Positions 20,949-64,000 of a stretch of DNA of 64,000 nucleotides are shown piece after piece (position 1 is the stretch's first letter; every line of letters begins with the position of its first letter). Source of the DNA: Antedon mediterranea (taxonomy: Eukaryota > Echinodermata > Crinoidea > Comatulida > Antedonidae); contig NC_092674.1 of the NCBI RefSeq assembly GCF_964355755.1, positions 8,313,001-8,377,000 on the forward strand, written 5' to 3'. Below the pieces are notes generated by a model, which made no database searches, had not been told where the DNA came from, and saw only the letters and a program-made list of their open reading frames with translations. Made by a program: the position numbers and the translations under genes.

Positions 20949-23900
20949 TCATTGTGTACTATCTGGAAATATTACTTGAAGCAAAGCAACGTAGTTAACG
21001 GTCATGACTGAATCTTGTGTGTTGAGTGGTTTCCAGTCTTGATTGAATTTGACAGGGGGCGCTGTGTACTTCATTGTGCTCACCGCATGGTCTTGCCAGT
21101 TTAAGTATTGCATGAATGCGTTGAAGTTCACTTGCCCTTGTTCATTCATGTTCATTCTGTAAAAAAAGAAAATTGATGAGAGAAATTGGTTAACCGCAAT
21201 GACGTCCCTAAAAATTACGTACTTTAAAATTTGGGTAGGCTACAAATTGTAAACAAGCGCTATAAATTTATAAATACTGTAGCTTTACAACTTAAACATC
21301 GAGAAGGCACTGATGTATATAATCATAGGAAATTTAACGCCTTCCAAGCAGTTTGTTATGATTTCATACCCTTTCTAATTTTGGTTTGATTGTCCTAAAT
21401 GCCAGGAAAGGCGTTTGAACTGTTATTAATTTGTCAGATCTGAAGAACGACTCAAACTCATGCATACATTTTGCATGGCTTATAATTTATGCGCATATGA
21501 CAGTTTTCTTACCCGTAGAATGAAAAACCTTAAAATATAGACATTATCAAGAAAATACACATCCTACAGCAAATAACTCACCAAGGACGGATAAACTGTA
21601 ACATGCTCACAATAAGTCTTATTTGAGGATAGGGAGTTACAACCCTGGCACTAGGTCAGAATTGAACACTAGACCTCAGGATTGAAGGCAAGTACTGTGT
21701 GTTAACCACCAAGCTACAGCTCCGCTATAAACATTCTAGTACTTTCATAAGACTGTTTGTCATTGCACTTTTCCTAATCATTTCTGTACATCATTTTACA
21801 AGAGGTAACAGTACTATAAAAATCACTTATGATTGATTAATTAGCCCATGGCAGTAATGTATTTTATTACTAATATGAAAACTGTTATCATTATAAGTAA
21901 ACAAAATGCGCTGTTCAATGGCGGTATACCAGTGAGGTTATGGGTTCATTGAAACCCTCTGCCAAATTCAATAAATGAAATTCTTCTAGCTTTTAATTTT
22001 GAGGGCTTAAATTTCAATCAAATTTGATAATGACCTCTGTTCTTGGAAATATTAGTGTTAGAGTATATAATTAAACAAAGTGCTCCAACCAATAGTTTTT
22101 CTAATTTAGGTAAAAATATGGAATATTACATTTTTTAAATTGTTTGATTTCGATCATATTTAGAAGCTTAGATTAAATCTTTCTTGGTTAAATTTGGTAG
22201 ACCCACTTATGGTAATTTAATATCTATGGAATACATACCTTGAAAGCACCGCCCTCAGCAGGTCATCAGGGATGGGTACATGGAAAGCATGACAAGTACT
22301 TCTAATTTGATCAGGGTCAATGAACCCTGACCTGTCAGTATCATGATGGATAAATCCTTCTGTCAGTTTAGTGAAGTTTTCAAAGTTGTTCTTTCTCAGT
22401 TGCTCCTGAACAATGGACACAAGTGTGTTGAGGTCGATCTTGGTGTCTTGTGTATCACAGTAAAAGCGAGCTAGAGTCATGATCTCGTGCTCAGCTAGCT
22501 GGCTGCCACCGAGTTGCACCATTAGATTTCTGAAAGATGAAGCAACTATCAAACATGAATGATTTTTACTAGTAACACTTTGGAACAGCATCCCTTTGGA
22601 TATCTGACAGGCTCCTAGTTCTCATCTTTTTAAGAAACAACTAAAAACGTATTTGTTCCCTAACTAGCATTTTTATTTATTTTTGTCTATGTTGTTTCTG
22701 ATAATTTTCTCTATACAGCGCTTTGATCTTCTGGAAAGGCACTTTATAAATAATGAATAATAATAATATGTTGTGAACTTCTGCTCCATCATGAAATTTA
22801 GCCAACACTGATCGCATTTCCAGCCTGGTTAAACTACTGTACTCATTTTTCTTACCTAAATTGATCATAACCTAATTTTCCTGTATTTTGTGGATCGTTG
22901 CGATTGAAGAATTCCTTAACACGGTCTTTTTCACGTCCAGCAATACCCTTCAGTTTGGTAATTATTTTTTCAACATCGGATACTGAAAACTGTGAAACAA
23001 ATGTTTTGATTTATTAATATAATAACTTTATTGGGATTTGGAATATTAAACACATTTTTTAAACATTGGTAGTGGCTAAACTGTGCAACCAAATTTGGAT
23101 TTAGAAACTAGCATACTACAGTAAGTAAGGGGGTGGGGAATCAGAGGCAGATTTATACACTTTATGATTTGTAATTTAAGTGGCACATACTGTATTCAAT
23201 AACTCTGCTGAAAATAACTTACATCTTCGTTATGTTTTTCCATATATCTAAATGCATACTCATCAGCTTCTATCAGTATGAAGAAATGATTGTGGAAATT
23301 CACACGGCTACCAACATACAGATCTGCAGTGGTGTAGTACTCTGACAGATGAGTGCCAAACAGAGGCTGGCCAGGCTTCTTGATTCGGTTACGTTCCAGG
23401 AATTTACCACCAATTATGCCTAGGAAGGACAAGATTCATATCAATAACGTTTATGAAGTTTAAAAATACTTGTATTATTTGTTCTGCACATATCCAACAG
23501 CAAATAGGCTAGGAATATCTCATGCATTCTGGACTGACTTAATACAAAGTGGATGTGGCATCATTTGGCCATAAGAAAAATACCTAAAGAACCTAGAACA
23601 TGGCCTAAAGGTCTATCTACACTATCACACTTAATGTGACAAAAAATGTGATGTGCCCATTTATTTTATGGACACAATAATTTCATATTACTACCATATT
23701 TGTTATTCAGATTTTTGTAGACAGAGCTTAAAAGCTACAAGTGGACCTTACAATTTGTTTGCTGTTGGTTGTGGTTTTAAAAATAAAGAAATAATACATG
23801 TTATAAAAGATTGTGTGACAGAATCAACACTTGCAAAATATATTTCTCTGTTTTAAGAAGGCACTTCAGGTCAATCATTTATTACTTAACTAATTGTAAT

Positions 23901-26900
23901 AAGCCACTGTAAAGATAATTAAATAATTCAACAATCCTTTATTAATCATGCATTATACAGTGACAAAACCAATAAATTACATTATTTTGTAATTAAAATT
24001 AATATTCATGAAAAGATTGAAAAAGTATATTTGGCATCGAGCCAAGGGCAATTACCCCTTTTAAAGTGAATTATTAATATATTTTATCAATTATTAAAAT
24101 AGACTATTATTATTCTTTTATTATTAAATCTATCAATTTGAACTTATTCAGCTTTAGTTGGTCAAAATATTCCTAAAAACGAATAAAGAAATTGTATTAC
24201 AAATTAATTTTGACAAGATATTAGCAGCGTAGATGAATTATTGATACTTTAATGGTTTTTATATTTATTGTATTATTTATTGTAGAACAATTTAAATGCA
24301 AATCTATATTTTATAAACTGTTTTTCTATTTGCCATCCAATCATATCTCAGGAAATAAGTTTGTCAGATTTTCATTAGCCAATCGAACAGCTCAGCAGCT
24401 ATTTTTTTTTCTATGTGAAAACATTGCGATTCGTGCGACTATATTTGTCTAGTAGAAAACAGGCTTAAAGCAATGCCTAGAGCAGGGGGTTCTGAACATT
24501 TTTGTAGTGCGGGACGAAATTTATAAATAATCTCGCAGGCCAAAAAGAACATACCGCACAACAGGCATGTGATGATGGCCGGAAATGGTACTCTTGCACT
24601 TAAAATTAATGATAAATGGCACCTTTAGTTGGCCAGACATGACACTCTTATAGTGCGCTAGCAATCGGCAAAAACGATACCTTTTTTCCGCTGCATGCTA
24701 CTAAGATAACATTTGTGTTCCCACTGATGCGAACATCAAGGGGAAGTCCAAGATGACGGTATTGTATTTCCGGTACGGTTATAAATTTATGCTAATAATT
24801 TTATATTTACATTATAATTAATGCAAATATTAATTTTATATACTTACCTTGGATTATTAACTCTTTTTTTATTTACTGTACTTTGCTTTTAACATTTTTA
24901 GTAGCTCTTCGCAGAGCATCTAGCCCGAAGGCCGGCTGTTGAGAACCCCTGGCCTAGAGCTACCATCATGAGGATGTATGGATTGTGACATTCAAGAATT
25001 AATGCTACTGTTGTGCCTTACCAGAGTTTCTCACAGGTGGTTCAAACACAGCAATTGTATCATCCGACAAGAAGTACGAGATGATGAATCGTCGGTCAAC
25101 ATCAATCGGTTTGTTAGTGTCCAACCGAGCAACAAAGCGTAACACATTGCTCTCTAGGCCATGTCTATAAACGAAAGAAGTGGTGTTCAATGTGTAAAAC
25201 AAATTGGGCTTGCGTTCAATTTATTTCAATTGAGCTTGGCAACAAATATAGCTTATATAATCAATCAACAATATCCCTTGCAATACTATCAGATATCTAG
25301 GCTAATGCTATAAAAGGAATAAATAAATTACAGGTTTGTTTTTAAATAGTATTAGCTTATTACAACTATAAAGACAAATGCAAACTAAATACTGTAATAA
25401 TATAATTATATTTTATTTACAATAATTAATTACTTGGTTTTTCTTTTCCAAAGGTACACATTAGCTTCAAGATCTTTGCTCTGTGTAACACAGATATTGA
25501 AAACCAATTGAAATGGAATTTCTGGTTTATGAAAAGAATAAGACACTTTGTAATCTGGATTTCTTAGGCCTTTGATTTTATGAGAGTTGTTACCTGTCTT
25601 TCTCCATGAACTTGATAAAGTCTCTCCTTGGAGGCTTAGGTAAAAGACCCATGCATGAACAGAGTGAATCCTCCTCAGATCCAAATCCAGTGTATGGTGG
25701 CCATTCATGGTTGATTGGCTCTCCAGAGGATGACTGGTAATTCAATGGTTTGAATGATGCTACAATAAACAGAAAGTCAACCATCAATTCATAGCAAATG
25801 AGATACTAATTTGGCATAATGATAAATCTCACTTGTATGAGAGGCATTGACACCTGCCTGTACCATACTCTTTGTATCCTTAAGGGTCTTTTCACACATT
25901 TTCCAGCACGGTTCTGATCCGGCGAATCGAACATCAATTTTTGGTTTTCACGACGTTCCACGCGGCTATGCACCAATCGATATGCACGTAGCCCAAGAAA
26001 ACAAAACATTGACGTCCGATTGGATTCTCCGTCGCCGGACCGGAACTGGTGTGAAAGACCCTTTAGACAAGATGTTTTACTCTCATTAACTCGTCTTTCA
26101 GATGGGATGTCCCACGTAGTACATAATAAAGAATTTGTTTCCAGTTAAACAATCGAGGTTAGGATATTACACTTACATTATGAATATAATATAAAATGAA
26201 CATTATTAATTTAATAGCAAATTCAATTCTTCTGTCAAATTCTTGCAATATAACAATATATTCATACTACAGTAGTGTCATGTAATTAATAAATATAATA
26301 ATATCAATATTACTGTACTTACTGACACCATATTTAGTGGAATAGTATTGTTTTGTAAAGTCATCACAATCGGTGAGTGTGAGAGTGCGCCCCCACAGGT
26401 TGATTTGAGTGCCAATGCAAAGATTACTGTCATGGTAATATTCGCTGTGAACTGCACCTGTCTAAAAATAGCAACAAAAAAGAAGAAGACAATCCTAATT
26501 AATATTCATAAGACAAAATGACACCTATTCAGTACAATCAATTGTGAACTATTTAACCGTGTTACTGCAAAAACAAAGAATTGCTATTGATGAAACTTGT
26601 TTAAAGTTAAGCTTAAACGATAAAAACAAAGATCTTATGTACTCATTTAAAAAAAGTAAGACTGATATAACAAAACTATTAAACTCAAGTTTTATAGTAA
26701 GGCCTATACAAATGTCTTTATTATTCTCCAGTCTAGAATACTGCATAAAGTTCTCTTACCTTTAGACTGTCAAGAATATATCTTCCTTTATGTCCCATAG
26801 GGCCAAATACATTTAGCACTGTTCGACCTGTGGTCTCTCCAGGCTGTGGCAGAGCTTCTGGCGCAGCCTTCGGGAGACGACCTCTCCTCAGGAACATGGG

Positions 26901-29900
26901 TGCAGCATCCCTCCCAGCATTTGGGCGAATGATTTCTTTAACTTCAACTGTATCGTCAGCCAAGAAATAATGTAAAATCATTTCACGAGCATCTCCAAAC
27001 ATGCTGTCTTTATCGTCCCATAGTCCGAAAAATCGCAAGACTTGACGATCATGGTCAAGAAACTGTTTCAGGGTGTCGACCTTCTCGTAGGGTCGTAAAG
27101 GCTGCTGCGTTTCATCCATCTGAAAGGAAAGACAAATAAAAAAAATGACAATTAAATAATATTTTGTTTTTTCTATACCTAAAGACATCAATAAAATGTC
27201 ATTATATATTACATATTGTAATAAAAACAGTTCAGTTAGTCATGATAAAGGAATTTCATTTTCCATCAGATTTGAGAAACATTTTTGCATTCTTGTTTTG
27301 TTAATAGTTTGACATTTTCTTAATTTTTTTTTTTATGTTTGTTTGTTTTGTTTATGAAAATTAATTCTTAAATTGGTTTAAAAGTGGGAAAGTAAAGTAT
27401 CTCAAGAAGCGAGGCTTGCATAGGGAAGAAAAAGAAACATGTATAAATTTGTATTTAACAATAAATAAATAAATCTTTGTCCTGTGCTGGAAAAAGAAAT
27501 ATTGGTCAAAACAGTTTCCGGCTAAAAGGACCTTTTACCCAAATATAGAAGATATTCAAATATCTAGTTGATAAGCCTCCTACTTACAGCTTTTCTATGT
27601 TCAGTGTTCGGGTCGCTTGGAGTGCCTACAGGTGCCTTGATCCGCACTCCCAGTTTACGTAAAAAGTTGTATGTGAATTGATCACAGCCTGTGATTTTAA
27701 AGGTGCGTCCATACAGTGTGATCTCCTTATCTACATTAAAGTGTTCAACCGTGTAGAACTGATCATCATTGGGTGGTGGTAGAGGAATACGATGTCGTCG
27801 GATCAATGTACCTAAAGAATATAAAACATTAACAATATTATTATTAATATTTAACCATCTCAAGTTTCGCCCATATGTTACCGAAGAGTTCTCATTAATG
27901 ACAATGGAGGGACAAATGAGCTAGTTCTCAATGTCCTACGGTTCAAGGTATAATATTAATATCAATTCATTTTTTTTTTATTTCATTATATAAGAAATTA
28001 CAAAGGAAAACATAATACAATTAAAAGCAAACAAAAACAACATAGATATCCATCTCCTTATAAATTAAATAAAGTTTCATAAAATTATTCTAATCTCTAA
28101 CAATTTCATATCTAACAAGAGAGATTATTATCAATTAATACTTTAAATTAGGATTATTGTGAGCTTTATAATATATTCTATATTGAATCATGTGTTGAAA
28201 TAAATTTTGAATATGCATTTATCATAAATATTATATAATTATTTAAATAAAAAGGCTTTAGAGTTTTTGGTTACATTTAATAACTGTTTATTTTATTTTG
28301 TACATTCTGTGTTTTTGGAAAGAGTGAATAATTCATAATTAACAAAACTACAAAATGTTTTGGGGTGTTGCATAAAATTCAAATTAGTCAATTTTATCAA
28401 AAGTAATCACCTTGTGGTATGCCACTATTATTAACCTGAGGTTCAATTACTTGAATTGAGTCGTCTTCTAAGTAAAAGTAAATCTTGCATTTTCTTATTC
28501 GGTACTGCTCTTCTCGTTTCTCATGCACTGCTTCTTGGAAGTAAGCATCGAACCTCATCACTTGACGGTCGAATGCTACCCAGGCTGGGGCGGCATTGCC
28601 TTCCCCTTGTGGGATATTGCTGAGCTGTGGCTTAGGTCTTTGCCCAACGAGTCTTTGACCTCCTATTCCAGATTTATGTTCACCAACGTACATTGAAACA
28701 TCATTGCGGTTGTCGAACTGATGTGATTTTTTGAAGTTTGTTTTACCAACCTGAAAGTTAGTTAAAATTAAAAAAAAATGTTAAATTTGATTAAGTTTAA
28801 ATAAAGCTTGTCAAGAATAAATAACAAAAATAATTGATGTGTGCCACACACAGTTTGAATGAATCTAACTTCAGTGATGTACTGTACTCCTCCTAGCTAG
28901 GCTATCCCTACTAATTAGCAAGGCCAACAAGGATTACGGTCGAAGCGGCAGCCAACTAAAGCGGTTAAATAACGGTAATCTGTATGGAACGCCGTGTGCG
29001 CTTTGATTGTCGTTGTTTTGTAATCTTTGATTGTCATTGTTTCGACAGGTTTTCTTTACCTCGGACGTAATTAACAATCTCCATTATTATGTAATTTATT
29101 CTCTTTTTTTTTTTACAGATTGAATGTGATACGCGTACGTTCTTTTAAACGAAATGGCGAATCGATGATTACTTATTTTAACTGTTCTAAATGATATACA
29201 TATGTTTAATAAAGTCTATAAAATACATTGTGGTGTTTATATTGTATATTAATATAATATAATAATAAGCCAATTATTAAGAATTATATATAAATAAACC
29301 AATCAATAAAGTATATCAAAATATATAAATATATTAATAATTAAAAATATTTGTTATTGTATATTAATTAATTAGTAAAGTAACTATAGTAGTGTTCGCA
29401 ATCATAATTTAATTACAATAACATGATGACAGCAATTTATTTAATATCCTACACTATTTTATTACTTCAGATATTTAAATATTGATCAATTGAAAATGAG
29501 TTTTAAATACTAAAATAAGATGAAAGTGTCTGTTTGATACGGTAATTAATTACGTGAATTTCTGCTAATAACTCGACTGACGGCCAGCAATAGTGCTGCT
29601 GCACATTAGGTGGGCGTCCCATGTTGCTTTATTGAAAACACAAACAATGTATTACAATGGAATAACACTTAAATGTATAACACACACTATTACTAATAAT
29701 AAAAACCAAGATTCGATAGTACAGTATGTCAATGAGATATAAATATTCGGCAATACCGTACGTAAATTATTATTGCAATACTGTATAAAGATTCGATAGT
29801 ATGTAAACAAGATATAAATATTCGGTAATACCGTACGTAAATTATTAATGCAATACTGTATAAAGATTCGATAGTATGTAAACAAGATATAAATATTCGG

Positions 29901-31360
29901 CAATACCGTACGTAAATTATTATTTAATGCAACACTGTATAAAGATGATTCGATTAAGTCTGTAAATGAGATATCAAGATTCGGCAATACCGTACGTAAA
30001 TTATTAATGCAATACTGTATAAAGATTCAATAGTATGTAAAAATGAGATATAAAGATTCGGCAATACCGTACGTAAATTATTAATGCAATACTGTATAAA
30101 GATTCAATAGTATGTAAACGAGATATAAAGATTCGGCAATACCGTACGTAAATTATTAATGCAATACTGTATAAAGATTCGATAGTATGTCAAATGAGAT
30201 ATCAAGATTCGGCAATACCGTACGTAAATTATTAATGCAATACTGTATAAAGATTCAATAGTATGTAAAAATGAGATATAAAGATTCGGCAATACCGTAC
30301 GTAAATTATTAATGCAATACTGTATAAAGATTCGATAGTATGTAAACGAGATATAAAGATTCGGCAATACCATACGTAAATTATTAATGCAATACTGTAT
30401 AAAATTCGATAGTATGTAAATGAGATATAAAGGTTCGGCAATACCGTACGTAAATTATTATTGCAATACTGTATAAAATTCGATAGTTAAATGTAAATGA
30501 GATATAAATATTCGGCAATACCGTACGTAAATTATTATTGCAATACTGTATAAAAATCGATAGTATGTAAATGAGATATAAAGATTCGGCAATACCGTAC
30601 GTAAATTAATATTATTATTGCAATACTGTATAAGGTTTCAATAGTATATAAACGAGATATAAAGATTCGGCAATATCGTATACGTAAATTATTATTGCAA
30701 TATTGTATAAGGATTCAATAGTATGTAAACGAGATATAAAGGTTCGGCAAAATATATTTCGATATATGTATTAGTTAATAATAATAGTAAATACAAATAA
30801 AATATACATTGATTTATCGGCAGGCAAACTTAATTATTATAGAAATATAAAGATTTGATAGTACATGAGTTGGCTTATATTTATTTAGCTGTAACTCAAC
30901 TCGCCATAGGCCATGGCGTTGACAACGACAATCAAAGATTAAAGCGCACATGGCGTTCCATACAAATGACGATATTAAACTGGCGGCCGCTTTGGTTGGC
31001 AGCCGCTTCGACCATACTCCGCCAACAATAGGCTTAGCTAGGGCCAGGCTACTCTGACACCGTGGTGGTGGTGGTCAGGTGCGCTGATTTTTAACTGATT
31101 TGGATTTGTGTATGTAGGCCTCTAGCTAGATAGGCCTAGATAGCCTCCTACTACTACTATAGGCCTACTAGTACTAGGCTAGGCCTACTGGCCTAGGCCT
31201 AGGGCCTAGCTAGTAGCTAGCCTAGCTAGCTAGGAGGGCCTCTAGCTAGCTAGCTAGGGCTAGTAGGCTAGTGGACTGCTTGAATTATTACATCAACAAC
31301 ACCTAAAAATCGACTTACATTTGAATTCAATGAGTTTCCTGGAAGAAATGGAAGTGACAT
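20949..31360 (-). CDS. EFHC2: EFHC2: three-DM10 and EF-hand axonemal protein
   Basis: Coding exons in transcript order: 31360-31319, 28750-28411, 27811-27588, 27119-26760, 26461-26323, 25759-25594, 25164-25022, 23419-23223, 22989-22856, 22529-22239, 21156-20949. They join in frame to 747 aa, against 749 for human EFHC2. The N-terminus MSLPFLPGNSLNSN, then KSGIGGQRL, matches the EFHC family; RRHRIPLPPPNDDQFYTVEH favours EFHC2 over EFHC1. DM10 domains lie at roughly residues 75-180, 225-360 and 420-525, each with an FxRxFDA- or LRF-type start and an SIQVIEP- or TVEVKE-like core; an EF-hand loop DTDRSGFIDPDQ is at 645-656, with Gln in place of the usual last acidic residue. Family members (including Chlamydomonas Rib72) are inner proteins of ciliary doublet microtubules, so an axonemal role is expected. 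Introns carry the elements listed separately. Confidence 0.95.
21632..21726 (-). mobile_element. tRNA-derived SINE head
   Basis: On the minus strand GGAGCTGTAGCTTGGTGGTT (box A) is followed about 55 bases later by GTGTTCAATTCTGACC (box B), the layout of a Pol III tRNA-like promoter. There is no anticodon arm that would make a functional tRNA. It sits in the last intron of EFHC2. Confidence 0.6.
22579..22775 (+). mobile_element. 3' end of a CR1/L2-type LINE
   Basis: Plus-strand remnant of a reverse-transcriptase C-terminus: WNSIPLDI, an in-frame stop, then SSHLFKKQLKTYLFPN and a stop. It is followed by a 3' UTR-like CGCTTTGATCTTCTGGAAAG...CACTTTATAAATAA and an (AAT)n tail, typical of CR1-like elements. 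It lies in an intron of EFHC2, antisense to it. Confidence 0.7.
23605..23735. mobile_element. Palindromic GCTCTGTCTACACTATC MITE copy
   Basis: AGGTCTATCTACACTATCAC at the left, AAAAAATGTGATGTGCCCAT inside, and TTTTTGTAGACAGAGCTTAA at the right; the right arm has lost about 12 bases. Located in an EFHC2 intron. Confidence 0.75.
24483..24951. mobile_element. Non-autonomous hAT element with 8-bp target-site duplication
   Basis: It starts CAGGGGGTTCTGAACATTTT and ends GCTGTTGAGAACCCCTG, imperfect inverted repeats of the classic hAT CAGGGGTTCTCAAC type. It is flanked by a perfect 8-bp duplication GCCTAGAG at 24475-24482 and 24952-24959, the length hAT transposases make. The 469-bp body has no transposase frame. 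It lies in an EFHC2 intron. The intact target duplication implies a fairly recent insertion. Confidence 0.9.
25883..26062. mobile_element. PIF/Harbinger-type MITE, TTA target-site duplication
   Basis: Termini AGGGTCTTTTCACAC and GTGTGAAAGACCCT are inverted repeats, with CCGGCG/CGCCGG symmetry further in. TTA flanks both ends (25880-25882 and 26063-26065), the 3-bp site used by PIF/Harbinger elements. It is 180 bp, non-coding, in an EFHC2 intron. Confidence 0.8.
28938..31013. mobile_element. DNA transposon with satellite core, first intron of EFHC2
   Basis: The left arm reads GGTCGAAGCGGCAGCCAACT and the inverted right arm GGTCGAAGCGGCTGCCAACC, continuing AAAGCGG on both sides; subterminal segments (GGAACGCC, GCGCTTTGATTGTCGTTG) are also mirrored. 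The element is about 2.08 kb, and about half is the satellite at 29700-30755. No transposase frame is visible. Its ends are diverged relatives of the MITE at 1490-2081. Confidence 0.8.
29700..30755. repeat. Satellite array, about 75-bp unit, 13-14 copies
   Basis: Each unit contains GATTCGATAGTATGTAAA, GAGATATAAAGATTCGGCAA, TACCGTACGTAAATTATTA and TGCAATACTGTATAAA. The word TACCGTACG recurs at 29754, 29829, 29904, 29988, 30065 and 30140, so the period is 75-77 with occasional 84. Copies at the right end are more diverged. Long minus-strand frames here are repeat artefacts. Confidence 0.95.
31100..31265. repeat. AGGCCTAG/AGCTAGCT cluster upstream of EFHC2
   Basis: Dense TAGGCCTAG, GCTAGCTAGC and CTACTACTA words between the EFHC2 first intron transposon and its first coding exon. 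Same composition as 2620-2825. Confidence 0.6.
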
Positions 31361-35703: not shown

Positions 35704-36167
35704 TATTTTGTGATCACTGATGGTTCTGGTGTCACTATATGCCCTACTATTTTTTAAAGTACTTTTAAAACGAGTTTTACAAAGTATGAAGTCAATCTGT
35801 CTATGATATGGCTTAGTTTCTTTTGTTACTCTACCAGCATCCCAGGTTTAAACATACATTAATTTGTGTGTGTTGTTACATGGCCAATTTTATGTTTGAA
35901 TGCTGTATTACAGGCAAAAAGCTTATTATTCATCATAAAATTAAAAAAAACTTGACCACTATCATTAATAACACTGTGTCCATAAGAACCAATGTGTTCA
36001 GATAAGTTGTCAAAACCAATATTGTTAGCTTTACCAAGTACAGCGTTAAAATCACCCAGCACAAACAATTCCCATTTTGCAGGTACACAACATGCTTTCT
36101 CAAGATCATTATAAAATTTATTTAGCAATCCGGGATTAGTTTTTGCCCTCACAGCAGTGGGGCTATA

Positions 36168-43318: not shown

Positions 43319-43324
43319 ATACTT

Positions 43325-47333: not shown

Positions 47334-50300
47334 TCAAACCATCTCATACTTGTTCATGTTGATCATACGAGCTAGACAACATGTCAGAAAAACACCAAAG
47401 ACCTGTAAAAATAGATCAGGTAAAATTTGTACTGTATAATACTCTAGGATGACTGCGATTAATTGGAATAAGAAACTTATTCCACAAGTTTGATAGTGTA
47501 GACAGAGCTTAAAAATTAAATGGAAGTTAACTTTCATTTAACATGAATGTCACATAAATTTATATTTTGGCATTCCAATTTGCTTGATATAAAAAAAAAA
47601 CTATAAAAAGATAAGGATATTTTAAGCAAAAGTAAAAGATAAAGTTTACAGCAACACTTTATATGAAAGGAAATATGAGATTTGTTGGTTGGTATGATTT
47701 CGTCTTTTTCAATTTTGAGTAATGCCAATAATGAATGATTCACTACAAACAATTTAGGCTTTCTCTCACAGATCGGAGTTTATGGAAATATTCCGATTTA
47801 AATTAATGGTTTAATACCAGAAATGGTTGTGCGTGTTGCATAAAATAAAAGTGTATATCATTGTTAGGCCTATATTCTGGAAACAAGGTCAGTAGGCCTA
47901 CTGTAGGTATGAATACCAGGGCTGATGTCTAACATATCAATATTTAAAGTTTAAAGATGTATTGTTATGTCCCCCAAAAACATGAGCGCCACATGGGTGG
48001 AGGATACCGGCGCTATATAAGTTTTCATTTATTATTATTATTATTAATAAAATAAGATTTTTAATATATTATTTTGTAGTTTTAACAAAGTTAATCACTT
48101 CTGTAGAAAAATAACAGAAACAATTAATGTTTTTACTTATAAAATGACAAAATAAATTGTTAAATTTAACCAAAAACCCATTGGCTGGCAGCCAATTTGA
48201 CTATTTTTGCTTTAAATTACAGATTTTCCAGGTAAATAATTTTGTTTTTGATCCAATTTTTGGTCAAAGTGGATAACTATTATGTGACATTAAAATGGCA
48301 TATTCAACAAAAAATGTTTTAAGAATTATTTTTTCAGGGGATAATACATCTTTAAGTTGTGTTTTTTGTTGTTTTTGTGTTATACTCACTTGGAAGAAAG
48401 CAAATCCAAGAGCACTACCACCGATGACGGACATGTTATTTCCGAGGAATCCGCTTACCTTTGAATAACACCCCTAAAGAAGAAAGACTCAAAAGTTAGT
48501 CGTACAATTAAATTCTACCAAACTGTACCTGTTAAATCATTCAATCATTATAAACCGTTGGTCAGATATTGTATATTAATTTTGGTATAATAAAATACAT
48601 TACATGTATCGTAATTCATATCAAACACTTATCAGGAAAACTATAATGTGTAGTAATTGTTTGCGTTAGTTTAATATTTTTAAACTGTTTACACAAATTT
48701 AGACATAAAATATGAATGACAGTGTCTAGACAAACAACCCCCATTTCCTTTCGTCCACTGTACAAACGTCAATGCAGACCTACATTTAACTTAATTCGGT
48801 TTTTTTTATCAATAAATAAAAATGTCTTAATTTTGATGAGGTATTTGTAACCACCTACATATTACTTCTTGAATGATTTATTTTGTCATTTTTTAATTAT
48901 AATCTGTATATATCAAATATTTATTATTATTATTTGTAAAACAACTTCATCCTTTTGGTAAATAGATAGTTAATTAGTTTTCATATGTTCATAATATGTT
49001 TCCATTGGCTATTTCAACTTATTTTATTTGCATCACTTTTAATTGTAATAAATTTATAAATTTATGAAATAAAAATCTATAATTAGTAATTATTACTAAA
49101 TTATTTTTAATTAGGTAGGACCTATTACATGCCACAATAGTAAAAAGCAGTTGTTAGAATGTGTATAGTACTTCATTAGGGAACTAATAGCATCCCATCA
49201 ACAGGATATTGGCAATTAGAGCACATAGAGATGTGTTTTATTAAAATAAGAATTAAACACACCTTCGACTGTTGTTAATGCTATGTGAAAAGAACAACGA
49301 TACTCTGTATTGCAAGACTACATTTTTGTTTGATTTGTTTAGAACTTACTATCACATTTTACGGTATTTTCTGAACAAGGGTGGGTTTAGGATTTCTTTA
49401 ATGGGGTGGGGTGATAATAGAGAGTGTATAAGACTTGGCCCCAGGTGTGTCAGTGTGCACCCCAGCACAGAAGCCCCAGGGATTCAAGGGTGTAATAATG
49501 ATTTGACCATAATTTGATTATAATGTAAAATATAAATTGTTTAATTAATAGTAAAGTAGTTTGTCAAAAATAAATTGATATAAAGAGCTGTAACATTGTG
49601 AGGCCATAGATGGATTCAAGGTAGAGGGGACACCACTAGATTTTCCACAGCTGAACTCACTATCTTAGATCAACAACAGACTGACATAATAATATTAAAT
49701 AATATTCATTGTTATTCCATTCTAAAAGAACATATTGATTTCAAATGACATTTAAGAAAGTCTCTATTGATATTGATAATATTATATTACAGGTAATGTA
49801 GACTTATACTTATACTTATTTATTTAATTTTTGATGGCTTATCCTCAGAATATATTCTACACTGCAGTTCACTCAGCTGCATCTTTCCTTCACATATCTT
49901 ATATACAGCATTTTTATATTCCTTTCTGAGAATATACGTCCATAATTTACATACACATACAGAATCATTGATTAAATTTGTTTAGTATGCCAATCCTACT
50001 TTAGACTATTCTATAGAAACAGTACAGGATTTCATTGGAAACAAAAACACTAAATAAAATGTTCAGAAAGAATGCATTATATTGATAAACTTTACTGTAT
50101 ACTGAAAAACTAAAAGCATATTTGTTGTTTATTTGGGCCCAGGCAACAACAGTGATTTCTCCCTTTGTCCAATTGTATAAATAAAACATAGTTATGTATT
50201 TTGAAACCAATGCTTTAAAACCAACCAAACCAAACCAAACCAAACCAAAAAAGTGACTAACTGACATTACCACCAAATTGCCCACACATGTTTTCAATAT

Positions 50301-53300
50301 TTTAATAAGATATAAGCTGAAGATAAAATACTTTTGTATTACTGTCTTCTCGGAAAAGGACTATAAACTGTAGGTCCAGTGTACACATCTAGTTCATGTT
50401 CCCTTTAAAGAACCTAGGTTGTCCCTCGACGAGTAGGGGGTTCCCCGGTGTACTTAGACACACAGCCACTGTCGCACACAACCACTGATCATACCTGGGC
50501 CAACTGGGAGATCAGTCTTTGACTGAAGAGGCTATATAAAGAAATAATAATTTTTTTTTTTAAATTACCAAAGACCCAAGCTTTTTCTCATTTATGATAA
50601 TAAAACAGGAATTCATGAAAACATACTTCCAAGGTTTACAGCTTTTCACGCATAATATAACTCATCATTATTATGACATGCATAGTGAGGTCATCCATGT
50701 TAAGCCTCTGTTTGTCGCCCAGCAGGCTCAGCTACAGGACAAACTGTGCCTTCCGTCTGACCTTTAGGCCTTTCTGAAATTTGCATATCACAGGCCTACA
50801 TGCTTTGTTTAAAATCGCTTGACCAACAATGTGTTAAAAATTAATTGTTTTCCTATTTCAAAATATTTTGAATTAAAATTTTCTTTTGAAAACACGATTC
50901 ATATTAATCACACTTTCGATTTAACACATTAATTATAATAGCTAACAATATTTTTTGATTAATAAATATAGCAAATTTAATTAATCATTGACGTAAACAA
51001 AAATTGTTTTTTCACCTGGACAGTAATTTTTTTTAAAAAGACCAGAGGCCTATATCTCTGGAAGTTCATTGGTTTTTGGTTAAACGACATTTTTATAAGT
51101 GATGATATTTTTGTTTTTTTGCAAAAGTGGAGCTATATTAAAATTTCAAAGATTTTAGTAATCTTTATTTTTTATCTAAAATTGTATTTCTTCTTTTTCA
51201 AATAAATGTTATTTTGAATTGAATGATGCATAAAAAACTATAATAATTTATTTATTCTTCATCTACTGTATGTTTTCTCTATTCATGATTTCTATGTCAT
51301 CTCCATTTTCATCTCTCTTGATTTTATTTGAATACATTCTCACTCTTTAATATCTCTTTAACTCATGACATTTGCAAAATCAACTATGAGATAAGTAGAC
51401 GATACATTCAATATCATCCCTCATTAGCAGATACTAGTATATGATCTCAAAATGCAAATTAACTTTAATAATTACAGTAAATCTGGCTATCGTAGACAAT
51501 CCGTTCTTTCACGATTTCACAATTTTAATTTCTCTCATTATAGAAACCTCTGCGACTAAATTTCTAGTTTGTGTCTGATGCAAGACAGTGTATATATCGT
51601 ATAATGTAACTCTTGGTTTACTAAATCACGTTTTTATTTTACTAACCAAACAATCCATTTTCTTCTGCTTGTCATAATTTGACAAGAACTTAATTTCTCT
51701 CATAGAATATGCCATGATAAAAGTGCTTGGAATAGCTATGTATAATACGCATTGCAGTGCATTATACTAAATGTTACTTGAATTCTCCGATTATGAAACC
51801 ACAGTTTATTTAGCTATCGTCTTTTAAGCAGAAAATCCATTTTGTTCTGCCAGTCATAATTTCACGAATTTAAGTTCTTCCATATAGAAAATGCCACGAT
51901 AGTAATTTCTTGCTCACTGTAATAACACATTGACGTTTAGTATCCTATAATGCAAATTAAACTCTCGGATTACTAAATCACCTTTTTATTTGGCTATAAT
52001 TAGACAATCCATTTAAGTTTGCCATTTGCAATTTCACAACTTTCATGCCCATATAGAAAATGCTGTTATAAAAATTGATTGGCTACAAGACGCATTGCAG
52101 TGTGTATAATACTATAACGTTAAGTTGAATTCTTTGATTACCTAATCACCGCAGTTTTATCAGCAAACAGAAATCAATTTTCTTCTGCCAGTCATAATTT
52201 CAGAACTTTCTTTTCTCCTTTATTATCATACAAAAGGCTCAAATAAATTTATTCAGGTTCACTATCTATAACTGAGACACACTTTCTTTCTTCTTTATTT
52301 TTAAAATGTAATATAAACTTTATTTTGCTGTATATTTTTAATAATTATGAACATACATGATTCTTTCAATCATATATACCAAAATTCTGGAAGAAAAATT
52401 GCTTATTTTTTTATTTATTAAACTTTATCACTGCACATAAAACCATAACATAAAAGCAGCGAAAAGAAAGGGAAGAACAGGTGACAAGCACCTCTATCCA
52501 CTTCCCCCCTTAAAATACACATATCAGTAACAATAGATATCAAGTATTCCCTTCATTGAAAATGAAAGACAACATTTTACTGGTGAAATGAAATTGTATA
52601 TCTGTACTGTACAGTATTAACCTGTAAAAAATATGCAATTACATAATTGGTGAACTGGATGGTTGGGTGCTTACAGGATAAATTGAAGGTTGCCCGCAAG
52701 TTAATATACAGTACAATGGTTGAGGAAATGTAGGGCGGTGGTGAGGGTGAGGAGTTGGTGATAACAGATGCGTTGTGGATTGAGATATTTGCTAGAAGTC
52801 ATAGGAGCCAGAAGATTTAGATTTTTATCAGTAGATTGTATCTGTTTAAAAATCCATTAATATTATTATAACAATATCAACAACAAATTTTATTTCTATT
52901 TTGTCAAAATTCAGGCTCATAGAATGTTTTAATCGAAATAGATTTCACTTCAAACAGATTGTTTATTCACCCGATTACAGTTATCTAATTAAAAATAATG
53001 TCTTTCTACTTTACCTCTGAGTACATAGTCTTGTTGGCAACATCAATTTCAATTGGTGTGTGATTCTTCTCTCCTTTCTGACATCGTTCCAGATGAACCT
53101 CCTCGTTACAACAGCTCCATGGTAGAGTAGTGTTGCCGTGCATATTTTCCCATTTAGTTCCATCAACTATCCAATCGGTGTAATTGTTTGTGCCACAACA
53201 TTTCAACTTGAAAAATGTTACATAATTATTATATTTAGTTTTTATTGCAGTATTATTATATTTAGTACTTTTAAGATGATTGGAAGACATGAATTTTGTT

Positions 53301-56300
53301 TATTATTTAATCGTGTTTACTTGTTCTATTTATTGGGAGATTTCTGTTTTCGTTGACCATTGACCGAAGACCTACAGTACTGTAACTATCTGACGTTAAT
53401 TATTGTTCTAGGTCTTCTGGTGTTGCAAACTGGAATTCCCTATATTCAATTACAGAAGAATTTAATTTTTTAACGAATGTAGAGAAGTCTTCTGTGTTGG
53501 CAGAAGTACAATACTGTATGACAGTTTTTTTAAAAAGGAATAAAGGTTTAGTTCCTCAAGTAGGGTAAAACATTAGTGCCACTTCTTAGGCGTCAAGGAT
53601 TAGTGCCCACATTAGGGTTAAAGGAATGAATGTTTAGTGCCTCAGGTAGGGTTAAACATTAGTGCCACTCCTTAGGCCTCAAGGATTAGTGGCCGGATTA
53701 GTGGCCACATTAGGGTTAAAGGAATGAATGTTTAGTGCCTCGGGTAAGGTCAAACATTAGTGCAACTCCTTAGGCCTCAAGGATTAGTGCCCACGTTAGG
53801 GGTTAAAGGAATGAATGTTTAGTGCCTCATGTAGGGTCAAACATTAGTTCCACTTCTTAGGCCTCAAGGATTAGTGGCCACATTAGGGTTAAAGGAATGA
53901 ATGTTTAGTGCCTCATGTAGGGTCAAACATTAGTGCCACTTCTTAGGCCTCAAGGATTAGTGCCCACATTAGGGTTAAAAGGAATGAATGTTTAGTGCCT
54001 CATGTAGGGTCAAACATTAGTGCCACTTCTTAGGCCTCAAGGATTAGTGCCCACATATAGGGGTTAAACATGGTAAGAAAATTAAGGATTACATCCTCAA
54101 GTAGGGTTACATTAGTGCCACTAGTTAGCCATCATGAATTTCTTTTAATTAATTATCTCTTACCCTCGATTGTAATTTGTCTAAGTAGTGATCATGTTCT
54201 GTCTTGTCAGCGTAATCTTCAATTGCTGTTTCTAGTCCTTCACGGAAGCTGTCTTGCAGCTATTTAACAAAAGCATCAAAACATCAGAATATCAAAAAAA
54301 CTATTTTCAATTTTAAAAGGCCGTATTTCGTGTTGCTGTAGTTTACAACTCAGAAAAATTAACTAAGGTTACAATCTTCTATCAATTAGTATAAACAATG
54401 ACAATTTTATAAAACTTACTGGACTACGGTATAAAAACCCTGAAATTCCGGCTGATAGTAGCGATACAAACACTATAAAAGTCAGCACACCAAACTGAAA
54501 AGGAATTTAACGTTGAATTGTAATTTATAATACTCTAGTCCTAATCCTATCCTTTAACACTTAAGTAGACAAAAGTATGATTACGTTTTCAAGTACTGAA
54601 AGTTGACAACAATTTGTGATCAGTGTAAAATATCTTCGTTATAGTATGATATTTTACGATAAAATATATTTTGCAGAGATATGTAGCAGGCCGATTCAAT
54701 ATCATTTAAATATACAACGAATTCAACAAAACCTGCCAGAATGGATATTTAAAATACTGTGAAAATCTTTACATTAGTTACAGCAACCAGTTTATAATAC
54801 ATTTCTACTTTCAAATTGAATATCATGAGGAAAAAGATACAAAAAAACTAAAACAAATAATGTTTTCAAATTTATAAAAAAAGACAATAATAAATGATTA
54901 AATTCAACCAAAAACTTATTGACATCCGGTCAATTTGACAATTTTTTTCCTTTAAATTACAGTTTTTCAGGTTTTTTTTCAATCTTATTTTTGATCAAAG
55001 TAAACAATTCTGTGACATTAAAATGGAATTATTAAAAAAAAACATTTGAAAAAAAAAAATAATAATAATAATGTACATCTTTGAAATTCATATTCATAAC
55101 AATTTAATACCAACTCAGGAAACTGTGTTTTCCACACATAATAATATATCGTGACCCAAGATGTTTCTTTTATGTACTACAATATAAAAAAAGCAAAGCT
55201 GACAACGTGTTTCACTTGCACATTTTTATCATATTTCACTAATTAATATGCTAAAAATGTCCCCTTGCTATAGGCTACAAGCTGATGAGGTGCACTTGTA
55301 CATTATCATATTTTACGAATTAATATGGTCAAAAAATGTCCCCTTACTATAGGCTACAAGCTGATGAGGTGCACTTGTACATTATCATAAACGTCATGAC
55401 TTATTATGACACACACATTATTTAACAGCTTTGTACCTAGCATTCTGAACTCTGTGCAGGAAGCAAGCAAGGATTTGAGGAAACAATTAATTGATGGGAA
55501 AATGTGTGTGTCACATGTGTGCCTAACCTCACAGTAAGAGAATGGAAAGGACTTTTAAATTTTTAATTTCGTCAATTTTCAGAAAATATTATTTTTCTTA
55601 TTTTATATTTTTGCTAGTCAAAAATGATACTGTATATAAAATATGGGGTGGGGGGGGGGGGGGGGTTAAAAAAATGTCCTCAGGGGCAGATCAAGGTTTA
55701 TTTTAAAGGGATAGGGGTGAGGGGGTGGGGAGGGAAAAGGTGCTAAAAATTAATTTAGTCCCTCAAAAAGGTTATTTTTATTACCTGTCAAAGAAGGAGC
55801 GTAATGTTAATAATAATAATATAAAAAGTACAGTCAATGAAAAAAAAAACACCTTTAATTATATTGAAATAGTAATGAAATACAGAAGTACAAGTTGAAT
55901 AAATATACAATGTTTCATTTAGGTATTAAGTAATCTTTTGTGCATTATTAGTCTGGGTTCCAGACGGAGTTTTGTCTTAATATTAGTAAAAAGATAAATA
56001 TTTTGGCACATATGGCGTTTCATACGTATACTACTTGATTTTGGATACTCCGTCTGGGGAAACACGCACAAGTCACATGGTTTGACACCAAGAATTCTTG
56101 GTGCATACGATTATCCGGTTGACTAGTTTCAGCTGCATGCGATTGGATACTCACTCGTACACCGTTTTAATATTCATATTTCAGAATTTCAAAGACTCAA
56201 CAACTAAGATGATGCTATGTTACGTTTAGACAATGTGTACTTCTTGGGTACATTTATGAAAGTTTCTGAAGGCTAGAAATTATTTTATAGGCCTATGCCT

Positions 56301-59300
56301 AGTAGTCTGGTAAACATTTGATGGGATTTTTCCCAAGAACATGCTCGTCTTGATGTGATAGGCTAGCTTCTCCGCAATTCAAACATTGAGAATGGATCAT
56401 TTATTACGCGGAGATAATTTTGATTTAATTCCCACCCAGCCAGACCCTGTCCTGTTCTGTGTGGTGGTGTATCCCTGTTGTGTGCCGGTGGTATGTAGGC
56501 CTCGATCTTTATTGGCGTTTTATTTGGCAGGTCATACGTGCGAGTTGAGTAGGACCTACGAAAGAGGCCTAGGCCAAGGACTAACCATTCATAAACAAAA
56601 CAACTTGGCATTACGATTTTATATTTTAACAGTCTCGATTGTACATTCAGCACTGTACGTATTCCATCTTTTTCATTTTGAAACAAAATAATCATTGGTT
56701 GATTCGAAATCCATATTTACATACCGCCCACCCCATATAGCCAAATACGGTATGATAACCTACGTCATTCTTATAGGATGTTTGCGGTCTGCAAATCGAT
56801 TTCTATACGTGTTTCACAAGTCTGTATTTTCAGACAAAAATCGCGGTCGAAATAAAAACAAATAAATAAAAAAAAAGATAATACAGACTTGGGGCAAGTC
56901 TAGTGCATTATGTGTAGTTGTAATAAGCAATACAATAAACATGGAAAAGATTATAATACATATATTAAAATTGTAAGTATATAACAGATTGTGTTTAAAA
57001 AGATGAGATTATAATTGGCAAAGGCCTACCAAAGTACATGGTTTAAGAAAAACTTATATATTGATTGATTGAATCGGGCATCATTTATATACTGTAAGCA
57101 AGGCTTTAAAATGTGATGTCCTATGTAACAATTAAAAATTGGAAAACAAAAATTTACATTAAAAATCTCAATCTAATGTTTTATATTCTAATGTTGGCGG
57201 AGGCCATAACAAATTGTCTTGCCATACAACATGACCATAAAACATTCCTATTTTCCTATCTAAATAAACAATTTTTCATTCTCTACAAATAAACTAAACT
57301 GGCCTCTTTTGGTATCAGTAAGTTACTGGGTCACCGTATACAGTATGTACAATTGAGACAGTATGACAGAATGTCATTAAATGTATTTTCCAATTTATCA
57401 ATTTGAATACATTGTCACCTTTTGACAGGTGAAATATGTATAGTGCAAAATTTTCTGTAAATAATGTTCATTGTTTGGTTGACATCTCCAATTGTCTTTA
57501 CATCTTCTTTTTTCCTTTCATAATTCAGTCACAGCTGAGTGATTTGAGCCAATTTTCTTTTGTCTTATGGGCCAATGCCAAGTTTTCAAACTGTCTATTT
57601 TAATCCCACTGATTATCAACACATTGTCTTATCCTAGGCCTAGTTTAACTTATTGATAATTTCCCCTCATTATATTATATTCATCATAACTCGGTCACAG
57701 GTGAATTTTGTAGGCCTACAAATGCCAAGCTTTGATTATTTTGTCATTGCAGTATTCTCAGCTGCTGTGGTTGCAATACCTGTGTCTTTACCACCAAGAT
57801 TTTTCTTAGTAATATTTTGTCTGTTTTGTCATCCGTGTCACAGGATGTGGAATTTTACACATCATGTCAAAAAACCATTGTTGGATTTGATCTATGAACT
57901 CATCTTCTCAACTCAAGTTACATTGGATCATTATTCTAACATCTGCCTAACATTATGATGTGTACAAATAAACACTCCAGTGTGATGTTTTTTTTTTTAC
58001 TGTTTATTTGTGAATGAAATCCAGAAGAAACTTAATTAATTACTGTCACAGGTTCACACACAAAACATCACGAGTAAGTTAATCATGATCAACTCTGAAT
58101 GTGAATGTAAAAATGAATATCTATTATTCCAAACTCACAGCTGTAAAAATTGGAATAATTTTGTAGTTTTATTAAAAACTTTCATTCTTTATTACTATTC
58201 AGGAAATTTACATTAGGTCAGCTTCCTTCCTGAGTAATTCATGTCAATTTAATAAGGTTTTAAGGATACATAACTGTACTAAACTTTTATTAGAAAATTT
58301 ACCAGATACAAAACTTACATATTTTCTATAGCAGAGCATACACTTATTAAATAATCTTAATCTATTATAAATAAATATTTCTATGCATTTATTTATAAGC
58401 ACACTTTTTTTATTCTTGGTGAAATTCAAAATTTATTGTAAAGAATAGCTGTGAAAAAGTACATTTTTATTAAATTTATATCATCTATTTATTAAAGATG
58501 TATGGTATTGTCACCAAAAAGAATGAAAATATGGAAATTAATAAAATCAGATTTCACTACTACTTCTGTAGAAAAATTAAGCGAAAAAAAATAATCCATG
58601 TCACTTAAAAAGACAAAATAAATTGTTAAATTCAACCAAAAACTTGTTTCCTTTCAATTACAGTTTTTTCAGGTAAACAATTGTTTTTTTCCATCTTGTT
58701 TTTGATCAAAGTAAACAAATATGTGACATTAAAATAGCATATAACAAAATCGTCAATAAAAAAAATGTTTATAGGCCTATTGTTAAAACAATAAACATAT
58801 ATTTTTTAAATGTGTGTTTCTTACCACTTGCAGCAACCAAGCGTAATTCCTCCATGTAGCACAGAGACCAATGATTCCTGAGGCGAACATAAAGACGCCG
58901 GTACCAATTAAGGCGTACGGAACTTTAGAATAATCTGACGTGGATAACGCCAAGTACATCTTAAGTTCTATTACGCCCCATAGGCCGATTACTAGCATTG
59001 TTAATCCCATAATCTGAACAAAGATAAAATATTAATAATGTTTAAAAAAAAGGAAATATTATATAGTCACAGAAATCTTGTGTTATAAGGCATTGAAAAT
59101 TGAATTATTCAGAAAAAAATTTTAGAAATTGAAAAAAGAAATTAATTCTATTAATTAATGTGATCGTAATTATCATAATTTAATGGTATTTTATTTCAAT
59201 TCTGAGCAAATCCCTGTTTTCTACAATAAAATTATGTGGTTTATTATTCGACCTCCATCAGTTGAACCTGAGATGCTACGTTGCACAAGAAGACGGGAAG

Positions 59301-59462
59301 CACTCACAAAGTTAAGACAACGTCAACCAACGAACTTAACTCGGGTTCGCTTCCGATCAAAAAAAAAATTATCATATTTCTTACCATAAAAACTAGTGTA
59401 AAGAAAGTCAAGAGCAGCTGCACCAAAGTCATGGTGGCCGTGGTTTGCATTCGCTTCCCCAT
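47334..59462 (-). CDS. Tetraspanin of the TSPAN6/TSPAN7 type, 260 aa
   Basis: Coding exons in transcript order: 59462-59385, 59013-58825, 54494-54420, 54259-54164, 53206-53015, 48473-48390, 47402-47334; every intron is phase 0. The protein starts MGKRMQTTATMTLVQ and has four hydrophobic segments: about 11-37 (across exons 1-2), 54-78, 87-109 and 222-247. The large extracellular loop has the CCG motif at 149-151, WSCC at 176-179, Cys188 and GCY at 211-213, i.e. six cysteines, plus N-glycosylation sequons NYT, NTT, NHT and NKT. The C-terminus NKYEMV is nearly that of TSPAN7 (NQYEMV). Tetraspanins organise membrane microdomains with integrins and other partners. The long introns hold repeat arrays (51475, 53537) and three copies of one MITE family. 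I cannot separate TSPAN6 from TSPAN7 orthology by eye. Confidence 0.93.
47483..47514. mobile_element. Fragment of the palindromic GCTCTGTCTACACTATC MITE
   Basis: AAGTTTGATAGTGTAGACAG followed by AGCTTAAA is the right terminus alone, in the last intron of the tetraspanin gene. Confidence 0.65.
47952..48355. mobile_element. MITE with TTAAAGATGTATT inverted repeats
   Basis: The left end TTTAAAGATGTATTGTTATG and right end GATAATACATCTTTAA are inverse. The body includes CTTCTGTAGAAAAAT, AAATTGTTAAATTTAACC, TTTCAGG-like tracts and TGTGACATTAAAATGGCAT. A foreign-looking GGCGCTATATAAG + (ATT)n stretch at 48010-48050 resembles a CR1-type tail and may be a secondary insertion. Related copies: 54880-55085 and 58490-58765. 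Confidence 0.65.
50340..50525. mobile_element. SINE-like element
   Basis: A GC-richer island: GGACTATAAACTGTAGGTCC, TTCCCTTTAAAGAACCTAGG, TCGACGAGTAGGGGGTTCCC, then GGAGATCAGTCTTTGACTGA and an AATAAT-rich tail. Composition and tail fit a SINE body and 3' end, without an obvious tRNA head. In a tetraspanin intron, near an (AAACC)n microsatellite at 50213-50250. Confidence 0.4.
51475..52225. repeat. Old tandem repeat, about 165-180-bp unit
   Basis: The anchor CAATCCATTTTCTTCTGCC.GTCATAATTT recurs at about 51498, 51652, 51834, 52006 and 52171. Units also share CATATAGAAAATGCCA, GCATTGCAGTG and GATTACTAAATCACC. Copies are 20-30% diverged by eye. Located in a tetraspanin intron. Confidence 0.75.
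53537..54115. repeat. Minisatellite, about 85-bp unit, six to seven copies
   Basis: Unit: GGAATGAATGTTTAGTGCCT, CA.GTAGGGT.AAACATTAGT, GCCACTTCTTAGGCCTCAAG, GATTAGTGCCCACATTAGGG, TTAAA. Copies are highly similar. The array ends about 50 bases before exon 4 of the tetraspanin on its downstream side. Confidence 0.9.
54880..55085. mobile_element. Second copy of the TTAAAGATGTATT MITE family
   Basis: AAATTCAACCAAAAACTTAT, CAATTTGACAATTTTTT, TTGATCAAAGTAAACAATTC and TGTGACATTAAAATGGAAT match 48150-48300. The right terminus is degraded to GTACATCTTTGAAA. Confidence 0.6.
55238..55395. repeat. Two-copy tandem duplication, about 80-bp unit
   Basis: AATGTCCCCTTGCTATAGGC + TACAAGCTGATGAGGTGCAC + TTGTACATTATCAT is repeated once with a single substitution in the first 40 bases. 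Tetraspanin intron. Confidence 0.85.
55396..58489. other. Remainder of the second tetraspanin intron
   Basis: Contains a G-run at 55645-55665; a possible MITE at about 55935-56075 (CCAGACGGAGT and ACTCCGTCTGG facing arms); and frames at 56363-56695 (both strands) and 57653-57958 with no splice signals or recognisable domains. No gene supported. Confidence 0.4.
58490..58765. mobile_element. Third copy of the TTAAAGATGTATT MITE family
   Basis: ATTAAAGATGTATGGTATTG at the left, then CTTCTGTAGAAAAATTA, TAAATTGTTAAATTCAACC, TTGATCAAAGTAAAC and TGTGACATTAAAATAGCAT. The right inverted end is lost. It lies about 60 bases downstream of tetraspanin exon 2. Confidence 0.6.
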
Positions 59463-63200: not shown

Positions 63201-64000
63201 AGATGGTCACGAAGTTATAAGTATTATTAATCTGATTCAAGAAAATAAAATCACAAAAGAGATTGATGCTTTTAGGTGAATTCAAATTTGTATATTTACC
63301 AAACAAATAGTTTTTTAGTGTTTTTTTATATTTTGTATCGCATTATTTTTTTTCAATTTTAACAATTGAAAGTATCGTACTGTATTACATTTTTTATGCT
63401 CAGCTTTTTGGGAAAAAATGGAGAATTTTTTTTGATGCGGTAAGCTAGTGAATATTACGCTTTATTGAGTATAACAGTCAATTACTTCCCATACAACTCA
63501 TGTATTCATTACTTTTATATTAGTAAATGATAATAAATTGAATGACATATATTTTTAATTGCTTATTTGATGTTGAGAACCAAAACACTTTTATATTTAA
63601 TGAAAACTTCCAGTTACAATAATTCTCCAAAAACAACTCTTTAATTTGAAATGTTGCCCTGCTTTTGCCTAAAGCTCTGACTACACTATCAAACTAGTTT
63701 GACAAAAAAAGTGTGATGTTCCCAAATATGGTAGGGATATGACGTATGTCACATATAGTTTGATAGTGTAGACAGAGCGTAATACTGAAATAATAATCTT
63801 GGTGCCAGCATTCATTTTGTCCAGGACCCTATATGTACACGGTCCCAGGAACCACAACCTGGACCTGGATAAAGTTGAATTTACCATTTATTTAATTTAT
63901 CTTATAGGTACAACCCTTTCGATCGAGCATTGCTTTCACACACCTCCTTTGAAGACACCAAACTATTCTACAAGGCACTTAAAGCTTTGTCTGCAGAAAT
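60286..64000 (+). CDS. TMLHE: TMLHE: trimethyllysine dioxygenase, 3' end beyond the window
   Basis: Coding exons 60286-60560, 61147-61262, 61522-61769, 62429-62577, 63051-63275 and 63908 to the edge join in frame to 368 aa; human TMLHE has 421. ATG 60286 is preferred to the in-frame GTG at 60277. The N-terminus (MNNICRTRVLSALIST...) is basic, hydroxylated and without acidic residues for over 30 positions, fitting a mitochondrial transit peptide. Next is the family N-terminal zinc-binding domain with WLRDHCR (H90, C91) and CSEC (C93, C96). The Fe(II)/2-oxoglutarate dioxygenase core follows: FGKSWGFT, DDTAYTSDAIGPHNDNTYLL with iron ligands His252 and Asp254, GIQVFH and GGENLLVDGF. The third ligand His and 2-oxoglutarate-binding Arg lie beyond the window. 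The enzyme hydroxylates trimethyllysine, the first step of carnitine synthesis. DTAYTSDA and NPFDRA favour TMLHE over the sister BBOX1. Confidence 0.93.
60871..61015. mobile_element. Palindromic GCTCTGTCTACACTATC MITE, full-length copy
   Basis: The most symmetrical copy: TAGCTCCGTCTACACTATCA at the left, GATAGTGTAGACAGGGCTTTA at the right, and inner arms TGATGTGCCCATATAATGG/CCATATATGGGCACATC pairing around GATATGACATCATCATG. First intron of TMLHE. Confidence 0.9.
62800..62919. mobile_element. Palindromic GCTCTGTCTACACTATC MITE copy
   Basis: TTAAACTCTGTCTACACTATC at the left, the inner GGTAGTGATATGACATCATC and CCCATATATGGGCACATCAC; the right terminus is eroded. Intron 4 of TMLHE. Confidence 0.8.
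63671..63781. mobile_element. Palindromic GCTCTGTCTACACTATC MITE copy, short
   Basis: AAAGCTCTGACTACACTATC to GATAGTGTAGACAGAGCGTA with the centre (CATCATC..GGGCACATC) largely deleted. Intron 5 of TMLHE, the third copy in under 3 kb. Confidence 0.85.

Follow-up and report, generated by a model that had tools for sequence, protein, structure and literature searches.

The four genes considered here, EFHC2, CMC4, a tetraspanin of the TSPAN6/TSPAN7 type and TMLHE, are very probably neighbours on an echinoderm chromosome in which an ancestral linkage group of bilaterians survives. They were found in a 64-kb stretch of Antedon mediterranea DNA (C5:8313001-8377000), called the window below. The chromosome in question, C5, measures 31.9 Mb and makes up 9.0% of the genome, which amounts to 354.4 Mb in 18 contigs; 11 contigs are 22-41 Mb long, and those examined past C11 are smaller than 0.6 Mb each. 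Animal genes seldom change chromosome but are freely shuffled inside it, so that gene content persists for hundreds of millions of years; a gene on C5 is therefore likely to have its human counterpart on the X, and a short X-linked run is expected.

Four window genes are good candidates for orthologues of X-linked human genes

It had been noted that the four orthologues lie within about 43 kb, and spliced gene models, obtained with a small protein-to-DNA aligner, bore this out for all of them, each resembling its human namesake more than the closest paralogue that was compared. They span 20.96-64.17 kb of the window, and all of them are multi-exon genes of clean structure; judged by their sequences, they are good orthologue candidates of human genes located on the X.

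The EFHC2 orthologue occupies window positions 20961..31360 on the minus strand and has 11 coding exons in the spliced alignment to sea urchin EFHC2 (exons 1-6 at 31319-31360, 28411-28750, 27588-27811, 26760-27119, 26323-26461 and 25594-25759; exons 7-11 at 25022-25164, 23223-23419, 22856-22989, 22239-22529 and 20961-21156). Spliced alignment gives 72.5% identity over 743 aa to the sea urchin protein and 49% to the human one, a difference that by itself makes an echinoderm source very probable, and the model carries DM10 domains and an EF-hand. In the PDB search (E=0), animal full-length EFHC2 chains reached 702-1199 bits against at most 469 for EFHC1-type chains, and a distinct EFHC1-like match is present on another chromosome (C1:37.28 Mb). 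By these scores, the predicted window gene is closer to EFHC2, which in human lies at Xp11.3, than to EFHC1. Its first intron contains a tandem array (29652-30605, minus strand) with coding repeats such as 'NLRTVLPNIYISFTYYRIFIQYCI'.

The next gene is short, with two coding exons on the plus strand. Exon 1 (38852..38909) was found by tblastn, at 58% identity to human CMC4, and by spliced alignment; exon 2 (39898..40004) gave a tblastn E of 6e-9, the match covering human residues 20-56 and the C-terminal tail falling outside the model. The twin CX9C motif is intact (C-x9-C, 10 residues, C-x9-C) and spans the exon junction, which identifies the predicted protein as a relative of CMC4. Human CMC4 is located at Xq28.

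The tetraspanin gene (47337..59456, minus strand) has 8 coding exons by spliced alignment, at 59385-59456, 58825-59013, 54420-54494, 54164-54259, 53099-53206, 49261-49317 (an uncertain one), 48390-48473 and 47337-47402. Its best match in the PDB, which lacks many tetraspanins, is TSPAN7 (8e-53), followed by TSPAN15 (2e-19) and CD9 (2e-9). As its product is 38% identical to TSPAN7 and likewise to TSPAN6, the gene looks co-orthologous to this pair, whose human members are located at Xp11.4 (TSPAN7) and Xq22.1 (TSPAN6). Best matches, taken in place of a full family tree, assign it to the TSPAN6/TSPAN7 group, and its C-terminus, NKYEMV, fits the group pattern -YE[MI]V. A search of the genome found no closer copy of a tetraspanin of this type.

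The TMLHE orthologue (60478..64172, plus strand) consists of 6 coding exons (60478-60560, 61147-61262, 61522-61769, 62429-62577, 63051-63275 and 63908-64172), the last of which ends 172 bases past the window. By spliced alignment it is 43% identical to human TMLHE, an Xq28 gene, and 29% identical to BBOX1; the relatives available in the PDB are of the BBOX1 type only. The model has a TauD Pfam domain and the Fe ligand pattern HxD...H (HND and ...NWRVLHGR). A second TMLHE-like gene, with intron positions largely matching those of the window gene, is located at C5:3161500-3165965; it is more divergent, being 35.7% identical to human TMLHE and 35% identical to the window copy. The introns of the window gene harbour a short MITE-like element (CTACACTATCAAACTAGTTTGACAAAAAA and its inverted counterpart), with copies at 60890-61010, 62805-62910 and 63675-63780.

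Flanking genes have both autosomal and X-linked human counterparts

The four genes are not strictly adjacent. Between them there is an uninterrupted, possibly transposon-derived ORF of 496 aa (40637-42127, plus strand), which encodes a Myb/SANT DNA-binding domain together with a series of near-identical 'QNQVILKHDQ' repeats, as well as a LINE-type reverse transcriptase fragment and pieces of a gypsy-like element with integrase zinc-binding and RNase H-like domains (34111-36206 and 43323-44426, minus strand). The beginning of the window, at about 640-11508, contains short coiled-coil-like ORFs, which may belong to one gene; they gave no convincing Pfam or PDB match, and a weak PDB match of those at 4.8-11.5 kb was judged to be due to chance. 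Scanning the 64-kb window for Rfam families and tRNAs gave no hits. Before these ORFs, a neuroligin-like gene lies at -63 to -39 kb relative to the window start.

Directly beyond TMLHE we found TTC14 (from 65.8 kb), followed by COG7 (76-85 kb), and as their human counterparts are autosomal (3q26 and 16p12, respectively), the X-linked run is broken immediately after TMLHE. Farther on are ATP6AP2 (87.8-93.5 kb), which has the Pfam renin receptor domain and scores 386 where shuffled sequences score 48-76; a large retroelement-type ORF; BCOR (about 175-189 kb), which has a PUFD domain and 44% identity and scores 389 where shuffled sequences reach 37-53; a carboxylesterase; and then a guanylate cyclase. 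ATP6AP2 and BCOR are thus placed together at C5:8.40-8.50 Mb, while CASK and MED14 are found at 8.89 and 9.30 Mb, respectively, of the same chromosome. All four map to human Xp11.4, as does TSPAN7. The expectation that flanking genes would be X-linked therefore held for ATP6AP2 and BCOR and, further out, for CASK and MED14, but it failed for the nearest ones, TTC14 and COG7. Because these immediate neighbours are autosomal in human, the run of four X-linked genes seems to be partly a matter of luck.

C5 and C7 together hold most genes of the X-added and X-conserved regions

We placed 91 marker genes in the genome, namely 61 human X genes, several of which (PRPS, PHKA, CUL4, AP1S2, RBBP7, TBL1X and others) have more than one human copy, some off the X, and a small set of autosomal controls (n=30). 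The X markers were divided into 43 genes of the X-added region (XAR) and the X-conserved region (XCR) and 18 genes of the third block (gene-rich parts of Xp11 and Xq28). Conserved stretches of human proteins were joined end to end as queries, and the chromosome of the best match was scored; each placement rests on the strength of the match, mostly 55-90% identity over 35-100 residues, and orthology was assigned by best match rather than by gene trees. HSD17B10, UBE2A, HDAC8, RPL36A, MAOA, RPGR, RAB39B and ATP7A were dropped from the counts for paralogues or ties. FUNDC1, CLIC2, SAT1, SMS, PCNA and TAFAZZIN had no clear match among the approximately 20-45 best candidates scored per search, which is not proof of absence.

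C5 holds 25 of the 43 XAR and XCR genes and 4 of the 30 controls, i.e., RPS3, RPL8, RPL31 and RPL21 (Fisher p = 1.1e-4). We thus observe an excess over controls, and an ancestral linkage shared between C5 and the human X is very probably real. C7 holds a further 13/43, compared with 1/30 controls (p = 0.005), so that the two chromosomes combined account for 38/43 vs 5/30 (p = 6e-10), the remaining 5/43 being elsewhere. Half of the XAR genes (11/22) are on C5 (TRAPPC2, CASK, PRPS, POLA1, AP1S2, KDM6A, USP9X, TBL1X, MED14, PHKA and DDX3X), 7/22 are on C7 (EIF2S3, PDHA1, EIF1AX, DYNLT3, DMD, CYBB and RP2), and HCCS, PIGA, RBBP7 and GK are on other chromosomes. Among the XCR genes, C5 has 13/20 (DKC1, OGT, PIN4, PGK1, MTM1, CUL4, TIMM8A, FMR1, MCTS1, PGRMC1, VAMP7, SMARCA1 and AMMECR1), C7 has 6/20 (BRCC3, VBP1, RPS4X, CSTF2, ABCB7 and SNX12), and HPRT1 is on another chromosome. 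SLC9A6/7, with one human copy in each region, is also located on C5. Near-identical CUL4-type C-terminal segments occur at C5:3.30, 3.378 and 3.406 Mb and at C1:30.5 Mb, with stops in the surrounding stretch that was read, and they may be duplicates of recent origin, pseudogenes or no more than the ends of exons. The NOX2/CYBB-type gene is present in three neighbouring copies at C7:23.15-23.23 Mb.

The original prediction regarded the window as a remnant of a linkage group. This wording is not supported: genes of that group occur all along C5, which is an intact chromosome and not a remnant. EFHC2 and TSPAN7 belong to the XAR, and CMC4, TMLHE and TSPAN6 to the XCR. As the window genes are split between two regions which chicken and frog keep on different chromosomes (PMC3472169), their 'X-linked' label is a mammalian afterthought; the fusion that brought these regions together in mammals is taken here from the literature. 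That both regions draw on C5 as well as C7 would be expected if they had arisen by duplication of a single fused ancestor. Simakov et al. (PMC7269912) describe bony-vertebrate segments of mixed two-group ancestry, arising from fusion before a second duplication. The idea that the linkage is evidence for a sex chromosome or for sex determination in this animal was considered and rejected.

The third block of human X genes is located on C9

Unlike the markers discussed above, 15 of the 18 third-block genes are on C9 (UBA1, HUWE1, SMC1A, TIMM17B, NAA10, GDI1, G6PD, HCFC1, PHF8, ALAS2, FAM50A, HDAC6, SYN1, SLC35A2 and EBP), where none of the 43 other X genes was found (p = 1e-11); the C9 controls number 3/30. 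No third-block gene is on C5 (0/18), and WDR45, RPL10 and IDH3G are elsewhere. HCFC1, FAM50A, SLC35A2, EBP, HDAC6 and SYN1 all lie inside C9:3.6-5.4 Mb. With XAR and XCR genes on C5 and C7 and the third block on C9, three or more ancestral groups have probably contributed to the human X, the largest of which is matched by C5.

Kohn 2004 proposed that the X has a third building block, which has been disputed; Macha et al. 2012 (PMC3472169) discuss both Kohn 2004 and Delbridge 2009. In frog, according to that paper, the Xp11 and Xq28 genes share a chromosome with the XCR, which corresponds to a two-component model. In the light of our data, it looks as if the third block was a separate unit at greater depth and joined the XCR before tetrapods. 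The two views can then be compatible, each at a different depth, and the dispute may be restated in these terms: in this genome the genes are apart from the other X genes, and in frogs they are already joined to them. On the other hand, the third block may be apart on C9 through a split in this lineage.

A possible local layer of conserved linkage among Xp11.4-p11.3 genes

Six human Xp11.4-p11.3 genes (EFHC2, TSPAN7, ATP6AP2, BCOR, CASK and MED14) are positioned within about 1 Mb on C5, and ATP6AP2 and BCOR are near each other in human too. With the four window genes left out, 4 of the 7 Xp11.4-p11.3 genes on C5 fall in C5:8.3-9.31 Mb, as compared to 0 of the 19 other X genes on this chromosome (p = 0.0023 in a small, flank-biased sample). 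The bias stems from the flank having been read densely, as BCOR and ATP6AP2 come from that reading; without these two, p is 0.035, and when only independently queried genes are used, there is no signal (2 pairs observed, 1.79 expected, p = 0.55). These results hint that linkage around Xp11.4-p11.3 may also be conserved on a finer scale, with a local cluster that would be tighter than expected. Such a layer would amount to a local neighbourhood that decays more slowly than the linkage of the chromosome as a whole. A literature search on this particular gene cluster yielded nothing relevant.

Alternative explanations of the linkage

One could suppose that four unrelated neighbours are all X-linked in human by chance, the pattern having been picked after the fact. 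The autosomal status of the next two genes agrees with this, the TSPAN6/TSPAN7 type has two opportunities to be X-linked, and if many of the genes on C5 can be X-linked, four in a row are no rare event. At the level of the chromosome, however, chance is contradicted by the enrichment on C5 (p = 1e-4), and the flank adds two more Xp11.4 genes, so we consider it very improbable. It is also quite unlikely that much of the mammalian X derives from a single ancestral linkage group, as originally worded. What stands of this claim is that C5 is enriched in X genes and is the largest single source of XAR and XCR genes; what does not stand is that it acted alone, since C7 contributes 13/43 and the third block is on C9, so that the blocks are not all on C5. 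This chromosome also houses the human-autosomal TTC14 and COG7 along with the four ribosomal protein genes mentioned.

A rather unlikely explanation is that shared regulation, e.g., BCOR or CASK enhancers in bystander genes, keeps the linkage under selection. The proximity of the six Xp11.4-p11.3 genes, while the remaining human X order is scrambled on C5, would fit this, as would the closeness of ATP6AP2 and BCOR both here and in human; yet the order is not collinear, TTC14, COG7, CMC4 and TMLHE are interspersed, and the sample is small. The most far-reaching reading, which we regard as rather unlikely, combines a regulation-held bilaterian neighbourhood of these six genes, more than 500 million years old, with a third block that was an independent chromosome before vertebrates. 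We prefer to see the window genes as neighbours on a chromosome with an ancestral gene content. Deep chromosome conservation being already established, the basic linkage finding is expected, and what merits following up is the local cluster, along with how deep the separation of the third block goes. If a small set of X genes stayed neighbours since early bilaterians, their linkage would be a candidate for regulatory constraint.

Comparison with known systems

Chordate and bilaterian ancestral linkage groups are treated in Simakov et al. 2020 (PMC7269912), and deuterostome ones in PMC11175523. As in those cases, chromosome-scale gene content is kept from invertebrate to human with the order scrambled, vertebrate chromosomes having arisen by duplication and fusion; unlike them, our analysis covers one window and 91 marker genes in one 11-chromosome genome. 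The scheme of XAR, XCR and third block (PMC3472169) is the same partition of human X genes as that used here, and it proves meaningful in this echinoderm. The frog (PMC3472169) differs in that its Xp11 and Xq28 genes are joined to the XCR, whereas here they are apart on C9. At the local scale, the Xp11.4-p11.3 set resembles ancient metazoan microsynteny such as the pharyngeal cluster (PMC11175523), as in both a few neighbouring genes would have been kept close for more than 500 million years, but it is looser (about 1 Mb), is not collinear and is seen here in one genome.
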